Shown piece by piece: positions 1-4,645 of a stretch of 64,000 nucleotides of DNA. Origin of the DNA: a virus. Positions within the stretch are counted from its first letter, which is position 1. Each line of letters starts with the position of its first letter. The stretch lies in IMG/VR virus record IMGVR_UViG_3300049489_001113, positions 1 to 64,000 of that record. One strand, written 5' to 3'. The notes under the pieces were generated by a model. It saw only the letters and a program-made list of their open reading frames with translations. It was not told where the DNA came from and did not search any database. Position numbers and translations under genes: made by a program.

Positions 1-663
1 GGGACCATCGACCCCGACAAGGTTCGGAAGGACAAGGCCAGCGTGATCTCCCGGGAGAAGGTGCTCGAATGGTACGAGCCCGACCCGATGGGACTTGAAG
101 GCGTGGGTGGACTCGGGGGCCTGAAGGACTGGCTTCGGCAACGACGCACGGCATTCTCACCCGCCGCCCGGGACTACGGGTTGCCGACCCCAAAGGGGGT
201 CATGCTCGTGGGCATCCCCGGCTGTCTGCATGGAGACACCGTGATTCACGATCCGGTGACTGGGACGACCGAGACGGTGCGAGAGCGGCACCAACGAGGG
301 GAGCGTTTCCACGTGTGGTCGCTACACCCGAACGGTGAACCTGTGATTGCCGCGGCGGAACGTCCACATAAGTACGACCCGGCACAGATGGTCGAGATCG
401 AATTCGAAAACGGTGAGACGATCCGCGTCACCCTTGGACACCGTTTCTGGGACGGGGAGAAGTGGATCACTGCTTCCGAGGTTTACGAGCGGCTGCAGCG
501 ATCCGAGCCCGTCCTTCTCCCGACCAATGCGGACACCGACCTTGCAGTTCGTGCCGAAGATGCTCTCCGTTGGTCTGAAACAACTCCAGGTTCTCTGGTC
601 GATTGTCGGAGCGATCTCCGTTCCTGTGGTGCACCACCTCCCCTGGTCGAAGACGACGATTGA
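1..663 (+). CDS. Ycf46-like AAA+ ATPase, N-terminal half fused to split-intein N fragment (partial)
   Basis: The reading frame is open through the left edge; the first in-window start is a GTG at 43. From that GTG, residues 1-60 are the N-extein. It ends in KGVMLVGIPG, the front of a Walker A loop, after a GLGGLKDWLRQR...YGLPTPKG stretch typical of cyanobacterial Ycf46-type AAA+ ATPases. Cys61 begins intein block A (CLHGDTVIHDP) and VTLGHRFW resembles block B. The frame stops at 661-663 without the rest of the ATPase; that follows at 1183 after an antisense HNH gene. Trans-splicing with the 1183 product would rebuild GIPG-TGKS, a perfect P-loop. The protein's cellular role is unknown. The residues beyond about 142 are antisense to HNH coding sequence, so the exact functional end of the intein fragment is uncertain. 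Confidence 0.85.
   Translation, partial: GTIDPDKVRKDKASVISREKVLEWYEPDPMGLEGVGGLGGLKDWLRQRRTAFSPAARDYGLPTPKGVMLVGIPGCLHGDTVIHDPVTGTTETVRERHQRGERFHVWSLHPNGEPVIAAAERPHKYDPAQMVEIEFENGETIRVTLGHRFWDGEKWITASEVYERLQRSEPVLLPTNADTDLAVRAEDALRWSETTPGSLVDCRSDLRSCGAPPPLVEDDD
223..660 (+). other. Split intein, N-terminal fragment (IntN)
   Basis: It starts at Cys (codon 223-225) directly after the GIPG of the P-loop. Up to 146 residues are encoded. Visible motifs are block A (CLHGDTVIHDP), the nucleophile Cys1, and a block-B-like T..H motif in VTLGHRFW. No endonuclease domain is present in frame. It pairs with the 37-residue IntC at 1183-1293. Confidence 0.82.
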
Positions 664-1129
664 GCACCGTCTCCATGACGAGACGGTGCTCTCGGACACA
701 GCCACTCCTACGCCCAGCTTCGGGGTGACCAGGCATCCACAACAACACGTACCCACTCTTGTCGATTCGTCGCCCACCGCGCCAAGCCGTGTTGCCGGAG
801 CCCGCCGATCTCTCTGCTGTGAAGCGCGCATCGGCTACAGTACCCCCGGCACTGCGGATCGCATCGGCGACACGGTGTGTGCTTGAGCTGAGACGTGCCG
901 CAACCACCCCGAGCGTTAGGCCCGTCTCGTAAAGTGCTCGAGCTTCCAAGGCACGAGACTGCGTCCACCGCTGGTTGCGACTTCCCCAACCCAGTCGACG
1001 ACGGTAGTTGTTGATCGTTGCGAGGCTCACCTTGAAACGCTTCGCCAGATCCGCCAGCTCTACCTCCCCTTGGAGGTAGGCATCCCGCAAGTTGGCAATC
1101 TCGTCGTCCGTCAGGCAACGCGGGGCCAT
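467..1129 (-). CDS. HNH homing endonuclease lying antisense between split-intein halves
   Basis: This 220-residue protein has two helix-turn-helix-like segments in its N-terminal half (LADLAKRFKVSLATINNY; LTLGVVAARLSSSTHRV). A C-terminal HNH nuclease follows (GEVVHHRNGDRSDNRPENL). The start was set at 1129 because AGGAG lies just upstream; an in-frame upstream start at 1162 lacks this. The gene runs opposite to the ATPase and its 3' end overlaps the IntN frame by about 200 bases. Its position between the intein halves suggests a free-standing nuclease that spreads the broken gene by cutting intein-less alleles. That role is inferred from the arrangement. Confidence 0.85.
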   Translation of the reverse strand: MAPRCLTDDEIANLRDAYLQGEVELADLAKRFKVSLATINNYRRRLGWGSRNQRWTQSRALEARALYETGLTLGVVAARLSSSTHRVADAIRSAGGTVADARFTAERSAGSGNTAWRGGRRIDKSGYVLLWMPGHPEAGRRSGCVREHRLVMETVLNRRLRPGEVVHHRNGDRSDNRPENLELFQTNGEHLRHELQGRCPHWSGEGRARIAAAARKPRKQ

Positions 1130-1182
1130 ACTTACTCCTGGGTTACACGGTATACCTAACACTAAACAAAGAGGTCGTCAAC

Positions 1183-1293
1183 ATGGACAAGATCGCAGTT
1201 CGATCCGTGAAGCTCGTGGATGTCGAGCCCTACTACGACTTTCACGTCCCTGTGTTCAACAACTATTGGGCGCATGGCGTGTGGCACCACAAC
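1183..1293 (+). other. Split intein, C-terminal fragment (IntC)
   Basis: The fragment is 37 residues, close to the 35-40 of known natural IntC pieces. It contains the block F/G signature VPVFNNYWAHGVWHHN ending in Asn37 with penultimate His, followed by Thr as the +1 extein nucleophile. The ATG at 1183 has its own ribosome binding site AAAGAGG at 1168-1174, so the fragment is translated independently. Confidence 0.85.
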
Positions 1294-2010
1294 ACCGGAA
1301 AGAGCCTCGCCGCCAAGGCCATCGCCACCACGTGGGGTATGCCCCTGCTCCGCCTCGATCTCGGGGCGCTCAAGTCGAAGTGGGTGGGTGAGTCGGAAGC
1401 GAACATCCGGAAGGCGCTACGGGTCGCCGAGTCGGTCGCACCGTGCATCCTGTGGTGCGACGAGATCGAGAAGAGCCTGGACGGTGCGACGAGTGGAGCC
1501 GCCGACGGTGGGGTGTCCGCCGACACGCTCGGAACCATCCTCACCTTCATGCAAGAACGACAGGGCGCCGTGTTCGTCCTGGCCACGGCCAACGACGTGA
1601 GCAAGCTACCGCCCGAGCTTCTCCGCAAGGGACGGTTCGACGAGATGTTCTTCGTCGACCTCCCGAAGTTCAACGAGCGGCGAGAGGTGGCGGCGGTCAC
1701 GCTGCGCAGGTTCAAGCGTGACCCCGACGGGTTCGACCTCGACGCCATAGCCTCAGCGACCGACGAGTTCACCGGCGCCGAGATCGCCGCGACCGTGCCG
1801 GAAGCCTTGTTCTCCGCCTTCGCCGCCTCCCGAGAGGTGACGACCGAGGACATCGTGGCGAGCGCCCGCACCGTGGTTCCCCTGGCGAAGAGCGCCAGCG
1901 AGAAGATCAAGGCACTCCGCACGTGGGCGCAGGGACGGTGCCGACCGGCCGCGCCGCCCACCCAGGACACCGAGGCGATCCCCGGGTTGGGGCGCGCCAT
2001 CATCGAGTGA
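1183..2010 (+). CDS. IntC fused to Ycf46-like AAA+ ATPase, C-terminal half
   Basis: Residues 1-37 are IntC. The C-extein starts at Thr38 and supplies TGKS of Walker A. AAA+ landmarks follow: Walker B CILWCDEIEK (D93, E94), sensor 1 ATAND (N137), an Arg-finger region LLRKGRFDE, and a small helical lid domain. The core resembles cyanobacterial Ycf46 (MPLLRLDLG, VGESEANIRKAL). Without trans-splicing neither half can hold ATP, since the P-loop is split exactly between GIPG and TGKS. It is followed by a promoter-operator and a separate downstream operon. Confidence 0.88.
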   Translation: MDKIAVRSVKLVDVEPYYDFHVPVFNNYWAHGVWHHNTGKSLAAKAIATTWGMPLLRLDLGALKSKWVGESEANIRKALRVAESVAPCILWCDEIEKSLDGATSGAADGGVSADTLGTILTFMQERQGAVFVLATANDVSKLPPELLRKGRFDEMFFVDLPKFNERREVAAVTLRRFKRDPDGFDLDAIASATDEFTGAEIAATVPEALFSAFAASREVTTEDIVASARTVVPLAKSASEKIKALRTWAQGRCRPAAPPTQDTEAIPGLGRAIIE

Positions 2011-2044
2011 CTTCTAGGGCGCGAGAAAAAAGTTTTTGAGGGGA

Positions 2045-2074
2045 TTGACATGTGCATGGTGCATATGTCATAGT
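2045..2074 (+). promoter_or_regulatory. Promoter with overlapping palindromic operator
   Basis: A perfect TTGACA (2045-2050) precedes CATAGT (2069-2074) with 18-base spacing. Over it lies an inverted repeat, TGACATGTGCA (2046-2056) and TGCATATGTCA (2060-2070), with one mismatch and a 3-base centre. Its position over the -35 and spacer suggests a repressor site. It sits 22 bases before the start of the 2096 gene. Confidence 0.55.
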
Positions 2075-2095
2075 AGCACAAGAAAGGGGAAACCA

Positions 2096-2923
2096 ATGAC
2101 GATCAAGATCAAGCCTGGGTTGCTCGTGAGCCTGTCCGTCCGCTCCCGTGGTGGGGTCACCTACCAGAAGAAGGACCTCCTCCGCACCGTCGAGGAGGCC
2201 ACCGAGGTGAAGGCGTGGGAGACGACGCGCATCATCGCCGACACCGAGGAGCACGAGCGCGCCACCAAGGTGCGGGGGGCGGCACGCTCCACCATCGCCA
2301 AGGTGTGCACGCACTCCGCCTTCGGGCTGCTCTGCCCCGAGGCGGACGAGTCCAACCTGGACGCGGCCATCGCCGCCGCCCGGAAGCTGGCCGAGGAGTT
2401 CAACGCCACGGCGAAGCACACGCAACTGGGGGTGTACGTCCTGAAAGGACGAGTCGCCGCTACCGACGCCGAGGCGGCCGCCGCCATCGCCGACGAGGTG
2501 AAGGGGCTGCTCGCCGAGATGGAACGGGCGTGCAAGGCCGCCGATGTCGAGGCCATCCGCGAGGCGGCGAGCCGAGCGAAGGGGCTCGGGGAAGTGCTCG
2601 ACGGACCCGCCGCCTACACGGTGGGGGAGGCGGTGAAGGCCGCCCGAGCGGTGGCCCGTGCCGTGGTCAAGCGGGTGGAGAAGGAAGGCGAGAGCGCCGA
2701 GCAGGTGCTCCGCACGATCTCCCTCGCCCCCATCGAGGTGGCTCGGTTCATGTTCGAGGACGACACGCCCGCCACCACGGTCGAGGGAACCGAGCTTCCG
2801 GCGGTGGATGTGCGCCGCTTCACCGACGACATGGGTGGGGATCCCGAGCCCACCGTGGACGAGCCTTCCACGGGAGAGGTGAAGGTCGCCGCCATCGACA
2901 CGCAGCCCATGATGGAGGTGTGA
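2096..2923 (+). CDS. Conserved hypothetical early protein (275 aa)
   Basis: Start chosen at ATG 2096 with AGAAAGGGG upstream; a longer frame from 2036 would overlap the promoter. The protein is alpha-helical and Ala/Glu-rich. It has a Tyr-Gln-Lys-Lys stretch near the N-terminus, long Ala-rich helices in the middle and an acidic C-terminal tail. It is the first gene after the operator-promoter. I do not recognise the family. Confidence 0.75.
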   Translation: MTIKIKPGLLVSLSVRSRGGVTYQKKDLLRTVEEATEVKAWETTRIIADTEEHERATKVRGAARSTIAKVCTHSAFGLLCPEADESNLDAAIAAARKLAEEFNATAKHTQLGVYVLKGRVAATDAEAAAAIADEVKGLLAEMERACKAADVEAIREAASRAKGLGEVLDGPAAYTVGEAVKAARAVARAVVKRVEKEGESAEQVLRTISLAPIEVARFMFEDDTPATTVEGTELPAVDVRRFTDDMGGDPEPTVDEPSTGEVKVAAIDTQPMMEV

Positions 2924-2924
2924 C

Positions 2925-3086
2925 ATGCCGATTGACCACAGGGGTGTCTTCGTGAGCTTCAACGACCGATGTGCGCGTTGCTCGTGCACGTACAAGGAGC
3001 ACGGCAACACTGGGCGTTGCCCCCACGGGGCGACACGCTACGCGCACTTCATCCCTCGTCCGAAGGAGGTGCACCCTGCCGTGTGA
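2925..3086 (+). CDS. Small cysteine-rich protein (53 aa)
   Basis: ATG 2925 starts one base after the stop of the previous gene; the stop is TGA at 3084-3086. It carries Cys at residues 16, 19, 21 and 33 plus nearby His, a possible small zinc-binding fold (CARCSCTYKEHG...RCPHG). It looks like a translationally coupled early phage gene. Function unknown. Confidence 0.6.
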   Translation: MPIDHRGVFVSFNDRCARCSCTYKEHGNTGRCPHGATRYAHFIPRPKEVHPAV

Positions 3087-3408
3087 TTCCACCCGGTCCC
3101 CCGGCCAGTCGGCCGCCGACCGTCAACGACAGATCGACGAGGCCGTGAAGCGCCTCGAGAACGCACTGCGGGATCGCTCCGCCAAGGTGGTCATCGCACA
3201 GAACGGTGCCATCGCCTTCACCGGCGACTGGGATCGCTCCGGGGTGGGCGACGTGTGCGCCTACCGGCGCCTCGTGGTCGACGGTTCTTTCGCACTCCGC
3301 ACGGCGGTCGCCGCCGCCGAGGCGCAGAGCGGACGCAAGGTGAACGAGGCGGCCGTGGCCGCCGGGTTCCACAGCCACGACAAGGGCAAGACCTGGGGGA
3401 GGGACTGA
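3076..3408 (+). CDS. Hypothetical protein, uncertain (possibly CTG) start
   Basis: The frame is open from further upstream, but the likely coding part is the DEAVKRLENALRDRSAK... segment. The only strong ribosome site, AAGGAGGT at 3063-3070, is spaced for an in-frame CTG at 3076. The alternative is a GTG near 3145 with a weaker site. The protein contains VVIAQNGAIAFTGDWDRSG and a helical C-terminus ending in HSHDKGKTWGRD. Its stop overlaps the next ATG (TGATG). Family not recognised. Confidence 0.5.
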   Translation: MPCDSTRSPGQSAADRQRQIDEAVKRLENALRDRSAKVVIAQNGAIAFTGDWDRSGVGDVCAYRRLVVDGSFALRTAVAAAEAQSGRKVNEAAVAAGFHSHDKGKTWGRD

Positions 3409-3668
3409 TGAGGTTGCCAAGTGCCACGGTCCGCAAGACCAACGCCAACAACCCCGACACACGCACCGTCGAGGTGTTCTACCCCGGCGGGCGCGGCTTC
3501 CTGCTGCACCTGTGGGTGCGCCACGATGGCACACCGATCGCCAGTGTCGAGCGCGCCGATCCCGGCATCGTCGTCATGGTACCGGCGAACGCCCAACACG
3601 GTGCGCAACTGGGTGATTCGATCGACAGCCACGCCTTCACCACCACCGACAAGCCTTTGAGGCGCTGA
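3408..3668 (+). CDS. Hypothetical protein (86 aa)
   Basis: ATG 3408 overlaps the previous stop and its own TGA overlaps the next ATG, so it is coupled on both sides. It is a beta-rich short protein (TVEVFYPGGRGFLLHLWVRH...). No known motif was recognised. Confidence 0.6.
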   Translation: MRLPSATVRKTNANNPDTRTVEVFYPGGRGFLLHLWVRHDGTPIASVERADPGIVVMVPANAQHGAQLGDSIDSHAFTTTDKPLRR

Positions 3669-3907
3669 TGCTTGAACAATCCGAGCTTGCGTGCGGCGCC
3701 TGTGGTTGCGCGGAGCATCGCATCCGTGGTGTGCAGCACCCGACACGCCGTTCCTTTGTCGAGCTGGTGACCGTGTGCTGTGGCTGCGAGAGCGTGACGC
3801 ACGTGCGCCTCGAACCACCCTCCCTGGAGTTCGACTGGGGTGACCCCGACTACGGGGAAAAGAACGACGGCATCCTGTGCATGATGCGGTGGCCCGAGAA
3901 GAAGTAA
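3668..3907 (+). CDS. Zinc-ribbon-like small protein (79 aa)
   Basis: Two Cys pairs, ACGACGC near the N-terminus and CCGC around residues 38-41, form a plausible zinc ribbon. The C-terminal half is acidic. It is the last gene of the coupled cluster that begins at 2096; a 348-base gap follows. Confidence 0.6.
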   Translation: MLEQSELACGACGCAEHRIRGVQHPTRRSFVELVTVCCGCESVTHVRLEPPSLEFDWGDPDYGEKNDGILCMMRWPEKK

Positions 3908-4255
3908 TTCCGCTGCCCACCTGCTTCCACGAGTGGCCGCAGACGAGCGGAGACGGCGGGCGGTCCGACCGTTGGGCGAAACAGGACCGTGGGTAGGTGC
4001 TCGCCCTAAGTAGTGCACGCACGTTCTCTGCTACGTCCCGTGCCTAAAATCAGACCAGCGAGGGTGCGGCCGGCATCCTTTCCCGTAGGGAGAAGTGGTT
4101 ACCCCCACACCCGGCCACCTCTTCAAGTGCGCGGCCTCCGAGTTGCTTCCGTTTCCCCGGCAGTTCTCGTCGAGGCCGCGCCTTTCCTCATCCGTGACCG
4201 GACCGGTTCGTCCGGCGCCTCGTCGCAGGCACCACGCGGCACCAAGGAGAAGGAC
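3908..4255. other. Intergenic region without a supported gene
   Basis: This 348-base gap separates two small-gene clusters. I see no open frame with a credible ribosome site and no tRNA cloverleaf. The last bases (4243-4252, AAGGAGAAGG) are the ribosome site of the 4256 gene. A promoter may lie here but none matches consensus well. Confidence 0.4.
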
Positions 4256-4645
4256 ATGCCCAAGCGCACCATCACCATGACCGGCCGTCCGCCGATCCAG
4301 ATCGCGGAGGAAGACTGGCCCATCATCGCCAGCTCGAAGCACACACCTGGATCGTTCGTGAACGGCACGCCACGCCCGAAGTACGAACACGACACGTACA
4401 AGATCATGGTGCGTGCCCACAAGGATGGGCGGACCATCGTGTACGGCATCCTCGACGGGGCCACCGCCTGGACCGGGACCGAGGACAGGCGGGCCGGGTA
4501 CCTGCTCGACCGGGAGGCTGCGACAGCCGCGGGCATCGTCCACGCCATCCGCGCCGTGGCCAAGGTGCTCGGCCAGTACGACGACGAGGACGACACCGCA
4601 CTTGTGGCCGACTGCATCGCCGACCTGCCGGCTGAGGAGGTGTGA
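4256..4645 (+). CDS. Hypothetical protein (129 aa)
   Basis: Start ATG 4256 follows AAGGAGAAGG. The protein reads ITMTGRPPIQIAEEDWPIIA...; a segment around YKIMVRAHKDGRTIVYGI suggests a small alpha/beta fold, and the C-terminus is acidic. Its stop lies three bases before the start of the next gene. I recall similarly arranged small phage proteins but cannot name a family. Confidence 0.65.
   Translation: MPKRTITMTGRPPIQIAEEDWPIIASSKHTPGSFVNGTPRPKYEHDTYKIMVRAHKDGRTIVYGILDGATAWTGTEDRRAGYLLDREAATAAGIVHAIRAVAKVLGQYDDEDDTALVADCIADLPAEEV

Follow-up and report, generated by a model that had tools for sequence, protein, structure and literature searches.

How does a viral AAA+ ATPase gene come to be broken inside its Walker A motif, with one intein half on either side of the break and an HNH endonuclease gene running in the opposite direction between them? 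Here we report the analysis of such a locus, which lies at the left end of a linear viral contig of 100,478 bp; the first 64 kb of this contig are the stretch of DNA that was analysed (the window). In the reading that we prefer, with a probability of about 85%, a P-loop intein carried a homing endonuclease gene nested in antisense, and the loss of the sense frame in its disordered linker converted the host gene into a trans-splicing fractured gene.

Organization of the locus

The ATPase is encoded by two forward ORFs (1–663 and 1183–2010). The upstream ORF consists of the N-extein (1–222), which holds the last 74 AAA+ residues of the N part of the ATPase up to the ...MLVGIPG of Walker A, and the intein N fragment (223–663), which starts with Cys1, includes block A and a block B with the TxxH motif, and ends with the stop codon TGA at 661–663. 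Beyond its core of about 100 residues extends a tail that is homologous to the linker found in unbroken relatives. The downstream ORF opens with the intein C fragment (1183–1293; 37 residues), which contains blocks F (YYDFHVPV) and G (GVWHHN), and continues with the C-extein (1294–2010), comprising Thr+1, the GKS of Walker A, the remaining AAA+ domain and the lid. The first ~215 residues of the ATPase are missing solely because the contig starts inside the gene; the opposite contig end was also examined and does not contain the 5' end.

The HNH gene (467–1129, minus strand; 220 amino acids) lies antisense within the intein interval, with a probable ATG at 1129, an alternative GTG start at 1162 and its stop at 467. 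It overlaps the upstream ORF tail-to-tail by 197 bp (467–663), and this overlap is free of stop codons, as it also is by chance in 44% of shuffled sequences. Judged by sequence, a Shine-Dalgarno-like AGGAG (1135–1139, minus strand) is located 5 nt before the ATG of the HNH gene, and an AAAGAGG of the same kind (1168–1174, plus strand) 8 nt before the ATG of the C half. The entire intein span (223–1293) measures 1071 nt, or 357 codons; its two halves share a frame and are separated by six in-frame stops (at 661, 676, 820, 889, 1012 and 1033). With so many stops, the notion that the halves are still read continuously, through a frameshift or by read-through, was rejected.

The ATPase gene is followed by a phrog_11021 gene (2096–2923, plus strand), as it is in intact relatives. 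A good sigma-70-like promoter (TTGACA-18-CATAGT; 2045–2074) is located just 5' of this conserved neighbour and is the only promoter-like site at the locus. A search of positions 1–3000 of the window against Rfam, introns included, yielded no match.

Identity of the ATPase and intact homologues

The C part of the host protein matched the Pfam AAA model (E = 1.9e-26). Both parts matched PHROG 8638, with model positions 249–316 in the N part and 315–547 in the C part (E = 2.5e-96 for the latter). The first-pass annotation had called the enzyme a Ycf46-type ATPase, a label that we could not confirm; the models matched were PHROG 8638 and general AAA+ models of the CDC48/FtsH-like kind, and no Ycf46 model was among them.

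Homologues without the insert exist. When the two exteins are joined, they align without a gap across GIPGTGKS with the intact proteins of four viral contigs (L001–L004; 58–64% identity in the C part), and with 51% identity to the intact gp95 of Mycobacterium phage Dylan in an alignment that spans the junction. The phrog_11021 gene is conserved beside the intact homologues and in Dylan-like mycobacteriophages. The break between GIPG and TGKS that had been read from the sequence is therefore genuine, and so is the fractured-gene layout with a split P-loop intein: two ORFs of one enzyme gene join exactly at the intein borders, GIPG|TGKS.

Evidence for the intein halves

An intein N fragment beginning at Cys, and a C fragment of 37 residues ending in HHN before Thr, had both been proposed from the letters alone, and profile searches recovered each of them. 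The NCBIfam model intein_Nterm (TIGR01445) matched the N half with 30.1 bits (E = 7e-7; curated cut-off 24.5 bits), and the match starts exactly at Cys75 of the ORF, that is, Cys1 of the intein (nt 223). HMMs made solely from inteins of other contigs matched the N half with E = 1.7e-31 and the C half with E = 5.5e-19; the matches are therefore not due to chance. The N half is 46% identical to the unbroken intein of locus L042 over 129 amino acids, and the C half is 62% identical to the inteins of L042 and L043. Four residues are invariant in 46 inteins of the family (C1, H72, D281 and N299), namely Cys1, the block B His, the block F Asp and the terminal Asn. The sequence features of a HINT domain are present in the window, with blocks A and B carrying Cys1 and His, and blocks F and G ending in Asn before Thr. 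With only the N half as query, a pattern search of viral contigs returned nothing, and tblastn in isolated phages, run with either the N half or the fused halves, gave no significant match, because the intein has diverged too far for searches with a single sequence.

The HNH endonuclease

The minus-strand gene forms an intact ORF between the intein halves, in the reverse orientation first described for it. Its product matched HNH_3 (E = 4.3e-9) and phrog HNH families, and is 54% identical to the HNH protein of L042. The AlphaFold model (pLDDT 85.5) combines a helical N-terminal DNA-binding bundle with an HNH domain, the two parts expected of an HNH homing endonuclease; among nucleases, I-HmuI was the best Foldseek match, with a probability of 0.99 but a weak E-value of 0.088. 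In a quick tree with many open branches, the HNH protein of the window groups with that of L042 (86) and then L043 (95), among the antisense members. HNH relatives in cellular genomes are mostly ordinary. The first-pass annotation had termed the nuclease free-standing; its position between the halves stands, but it is antisense, overlaps the N half by 197 bp and has its kin nested within unbroken inteins.

Unbroken relatives

The first such relative was L028, whose HNH gene runs antisense within a single long terminase ORF that holds a complete P-loop intein. The same layout was found in L026 and in two isolated phages, Pectobacterium phage Abuela (OP748251.2; terminase ORF 984–3248, HNH gene 2357–3055) and Pseudoalteromonas phage PHS3 (KX912252.1). 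The HNH protein of Abuela is 94–100% identical in seven further records, Ymer among them. The PHS3 deposit lists a shortened terminase and an HNH gene, and its sequence is one open frame of 708 codons. In deposits of isolated phages, ORFs with an unbroken antisense-HNH intein are either named 'hypothetical protein' or cut into a short terminase and an HNH gene.

The search was then widened with four aligned HNH proteins as the query, which gave 80 loci, ordered solely by the similarity of their HNH proteins. A long antisense ORF was present in all of them except L075, and its register relative to the HNH gene was the same in all but L046. HMMs of the intein ends located the N and C parts on a single ORF, running opposite to the HNH gene, at 83 loci, and on two ORFs in the window only; a search from the intein side added further unbroken antisense members and no other split one. 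In total, about 90 relatives retain the unbroken element. A match to the Pfam intein domain is present in 47 of the 57 non-redundant members. The host proteins are mostly terminases (Terminase_6N in 29), together with helicases, SMC/Rad50-like proteins and other P-loop proteins, and nearly all listed insertions are at or adjoining Walker A, with the position of Cys1 not assignable automatically in a few members. The P-loop is thus the usual site of this intein family and not a special choice in the window. The unbroken inteins are 269–358 codons long, and in 46 of the 48 members measured the intein encloses the whole HNH ORF, counted from the first ATG.

Several loci depart from this pattern. 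At L075 (1–1031), an HNH gene that belongs to the antisense clade, but has no open frame opposite it, adjoins an intein-N-like ORF (2–259, minus strand) that leaves the contig. At L046 (1565–2235), the register of the long antisense ORF is unlike all others, possibly owing to a frameshift in the HNH gene or to assembly. The host ORFs of L087, L094 and L105 also match LAGLIDADG_3 far downstream of the antisense-HNH intein, perhaps in a second intein; such matches were considered as the antisense region itself and rejected, as they belong to a separate downstream element. Five mini-inteins of the same family (L185, L193, L197, L198 and L202; 126–164 amino acids) have no HNH gene, and that of L185 (141 amino acids) is the closest match to the N half of the window (53%). 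In a MAG of Actinomycetes (L139), a distant intein at a non-P-loop site (2727–4271, minus strand; junction HN|C) has an antisense HNH gene (2916–3704, plus strand) in its loop, and the layout may therefore extend beyond P-loop sites.

Dual coding and its loss

Since the intein frame of nearly all relatives is unbroken through the antisense gene, one DNA segment encodes both the intein loop and the nuclease. This constraint was quantified by shuffling synonymous codons within each HNH gene and counting stops in the intein register. Among 55 non-redundant HNH genes, from loci that had not been picked for an antisense frame, no stops were seen where 350 were expected, and among all 82 loci none were seen against 548 expected. 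In the other two registers, stops were at or above expectation, and 28 free-standing HNH genes used as controls contained 207 stops against 230 expected. The shuffle preserves the protein and the codon usage but not the context of the codons, and the loci, being related, do not count as independent; even so, the contrast is large. The window has 6 stops in this register, against 6.7 expected, and the dual-coding constraint is gone there.

The segment that lost its frame corresponds to a part of the intein that lies outside the splicing fold. In the AlphaFold model of the unbroken L042 intein, residues 1–98 and 266–299 form a confident HINT fold (pLDDT ~95–98), and a Foldseek search of the PDB with this model matched inteins (NpuDnaB with TMt 0.83). 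Residues 99–262, which make up most of the region antisense to the HNH gene, are almost wholly disordered (pLDDT mostly <55).

An error of assembly or sequencing in a continuous intein is exceedingly unlikely as the cause of the stops. The gene lies at the left end of a single metagenomic contig, where such an error might be suspected, but the stops are six separate in-frame codons that agree in number with the expectation in the absence of constraint, and the HNH gene, read from the same bases, is intact through all its 220 codons. We also consider it very unlikely that the ATPase gene is dead, or that its halves work unspliced, with the intein remnants in decay. The six stops in the loop would fit such decay; against it, the splicing residues, both extein parts and the Walker A and B motifs are intact, as is the HNH ORF, the C half is provided with a ribosome-binding site and an ATG of its own, and the break lies in the disordered loop and not in the HINT domain. 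Without splicing, moreover, the gene would have no complete Walker A motif.

Origin of the split

The window shares with the antisense-HNH P-loop family the insertion in Walker A and the antisense HNH gene in the fixed register, and differs from it in that the intein frame is not open through the HNH gene but interrupted by six stops. It is related to this family by descent and probably represents a derived split form. Because the HNH relatives are nested antisense in unbroken inteins, the fracture is most likely the derived state.

A different course would be that of a classical fractured gene, in which a free-standing HNH gene invaded an intein that was already split, or a mini-intein, and took the reverse orientation by chance. 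The layout resembles that of published fractured genes, such as the PolB gene of Pseudomonas phage MIJ3, where the HNH gene orf154 lies between the halves of a split intein (PMC6892783), and the family does include mini-inteins without HNH, such as that of L185. Several observations nevertheless make this course improbable. The HNH protein of the window nests among those located antisense in inteins, and the N half, the C half and the HNH protein all have the same nearest relatives among the HNH-bearing loci, L042 and L043. The tail of the N half (RAEDALRWSETTPGS...) aligns with the antisense-coded loop of L042 and L043 (HAEDDLRWCEIIPDS...). Furthermore, the intein span is an exact multiple of three, its 357 codons fall within the range of the unbroken relatives, and the register is identical.

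We therefore retain the descent from an unbroken intein with an antisense-nested nuclease. No unbroken version in the same ATPase gene was seen among the nearest relatives; their host ATPases differ, being Rad50/SMC-like in L042 and an SF2 helicase in L043. Since these hosts are not orthologous, it seems that the lineage can pass from one P-loop gene to another.

For the order of the fracture, and for splicing, cleavage and homing, we infer the following course from the sequences. The C part would first have gained its own start (ribosome-binding site and ATG), which would have left the disordered loop free to lose its frame and to accumulate the six stops. With the loop frame lost and the C part equipped with its own start, the ATPase is made as two polypeptides. 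These would associate through their intein halves and splice in trans by means of Cys1, the block B His, the terminal Asn and Thr+1, restoring GIPGTGKS. The HNH protein, in turn, would cleave those P-loop alleles of co-infecting phages that lack the intein, and through repair the 1.07-kb cassette would be copied in full, fracture included. Spread of the entire arrangement by the nuclease, as suggested in the first-pass annotation, is probable.

Relation to known systems

The fractured genes reported by Dassa et al. in 2009 are conserved enzyme genes, for the most part in phages, that are interrupted by a split intein and have an endonuclease gene located between the two halves; half of these loci reportedly have Vsr-like nucleases. 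The window is alike in having a conserved enzyme gene, a split intein and an endonuclease gene between the halves; it differs in that the gene is an AAA+ ATPase cut in Walker A, in that the HNH gene is antisense and overlaps the N half, and in that the relatives are unbroken with the nuclease nested in antisense. Inteins of actinobacteriophages with a 'non-canonical architecture' are reportedly the subject of a 2025 preprint by Gosselin, Arsenault and Gogarten, which, to judge by its title, may include inteins with an endonuclease in another frame.

Among individual systems, MIJ3 PolB shares with the window an HNH gene between split-intein halves and differs in the host gene (PMC6892783). The ShiLan element, a hidden out-of-frame HNH gene in a phage methylase, is likewise a homing element whose HNH gene overlaps an open host frame (PMC11855218). 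P-loop inteins are described in mycobacteriophage terminases, so that Walker A of phage ATPases is a target common to both, and the excerpted text of that report mentions neither an antisense HNH gene nor a split (PMC5050341). No description of antisense-nested endonucleases in inteins was found in the open-licence literature. Fractured genes as such are known, and their antisense-nested origin may be new, although the preprint of 2025 could already describe the antisense class.

Implications

The absence of stops in the intein register (0 versus 350) makes this family a clear case of a long antiparallel gene overlap held by selection. Its genes often bear the annotation 'hypothetical protein' or pass for truncated terminases. 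For protein engineering, the element points to new homing nucleases specific to P-loops and to new split-intein pairs. The chances are about even that these elements constitute a widespread, unrecognised class of phage inteins whose homing endonuclease is encoded opposite their own disordered loop, and that losing the loop frame of such an element leads directly, in nature, to split inteins and fractured genes, a step that the window would exemplify. Work on fractured genes had raised the question of how natural split inteins, and the free-standing nucleases between gene halves, originate. The antisense-HNH intein family provides a concrete intermediate, in which the loop can be broken without harm to the splicing fold or the nuclease, and its unbroken and split forms together suggest how trans-splicing broken genes arise.
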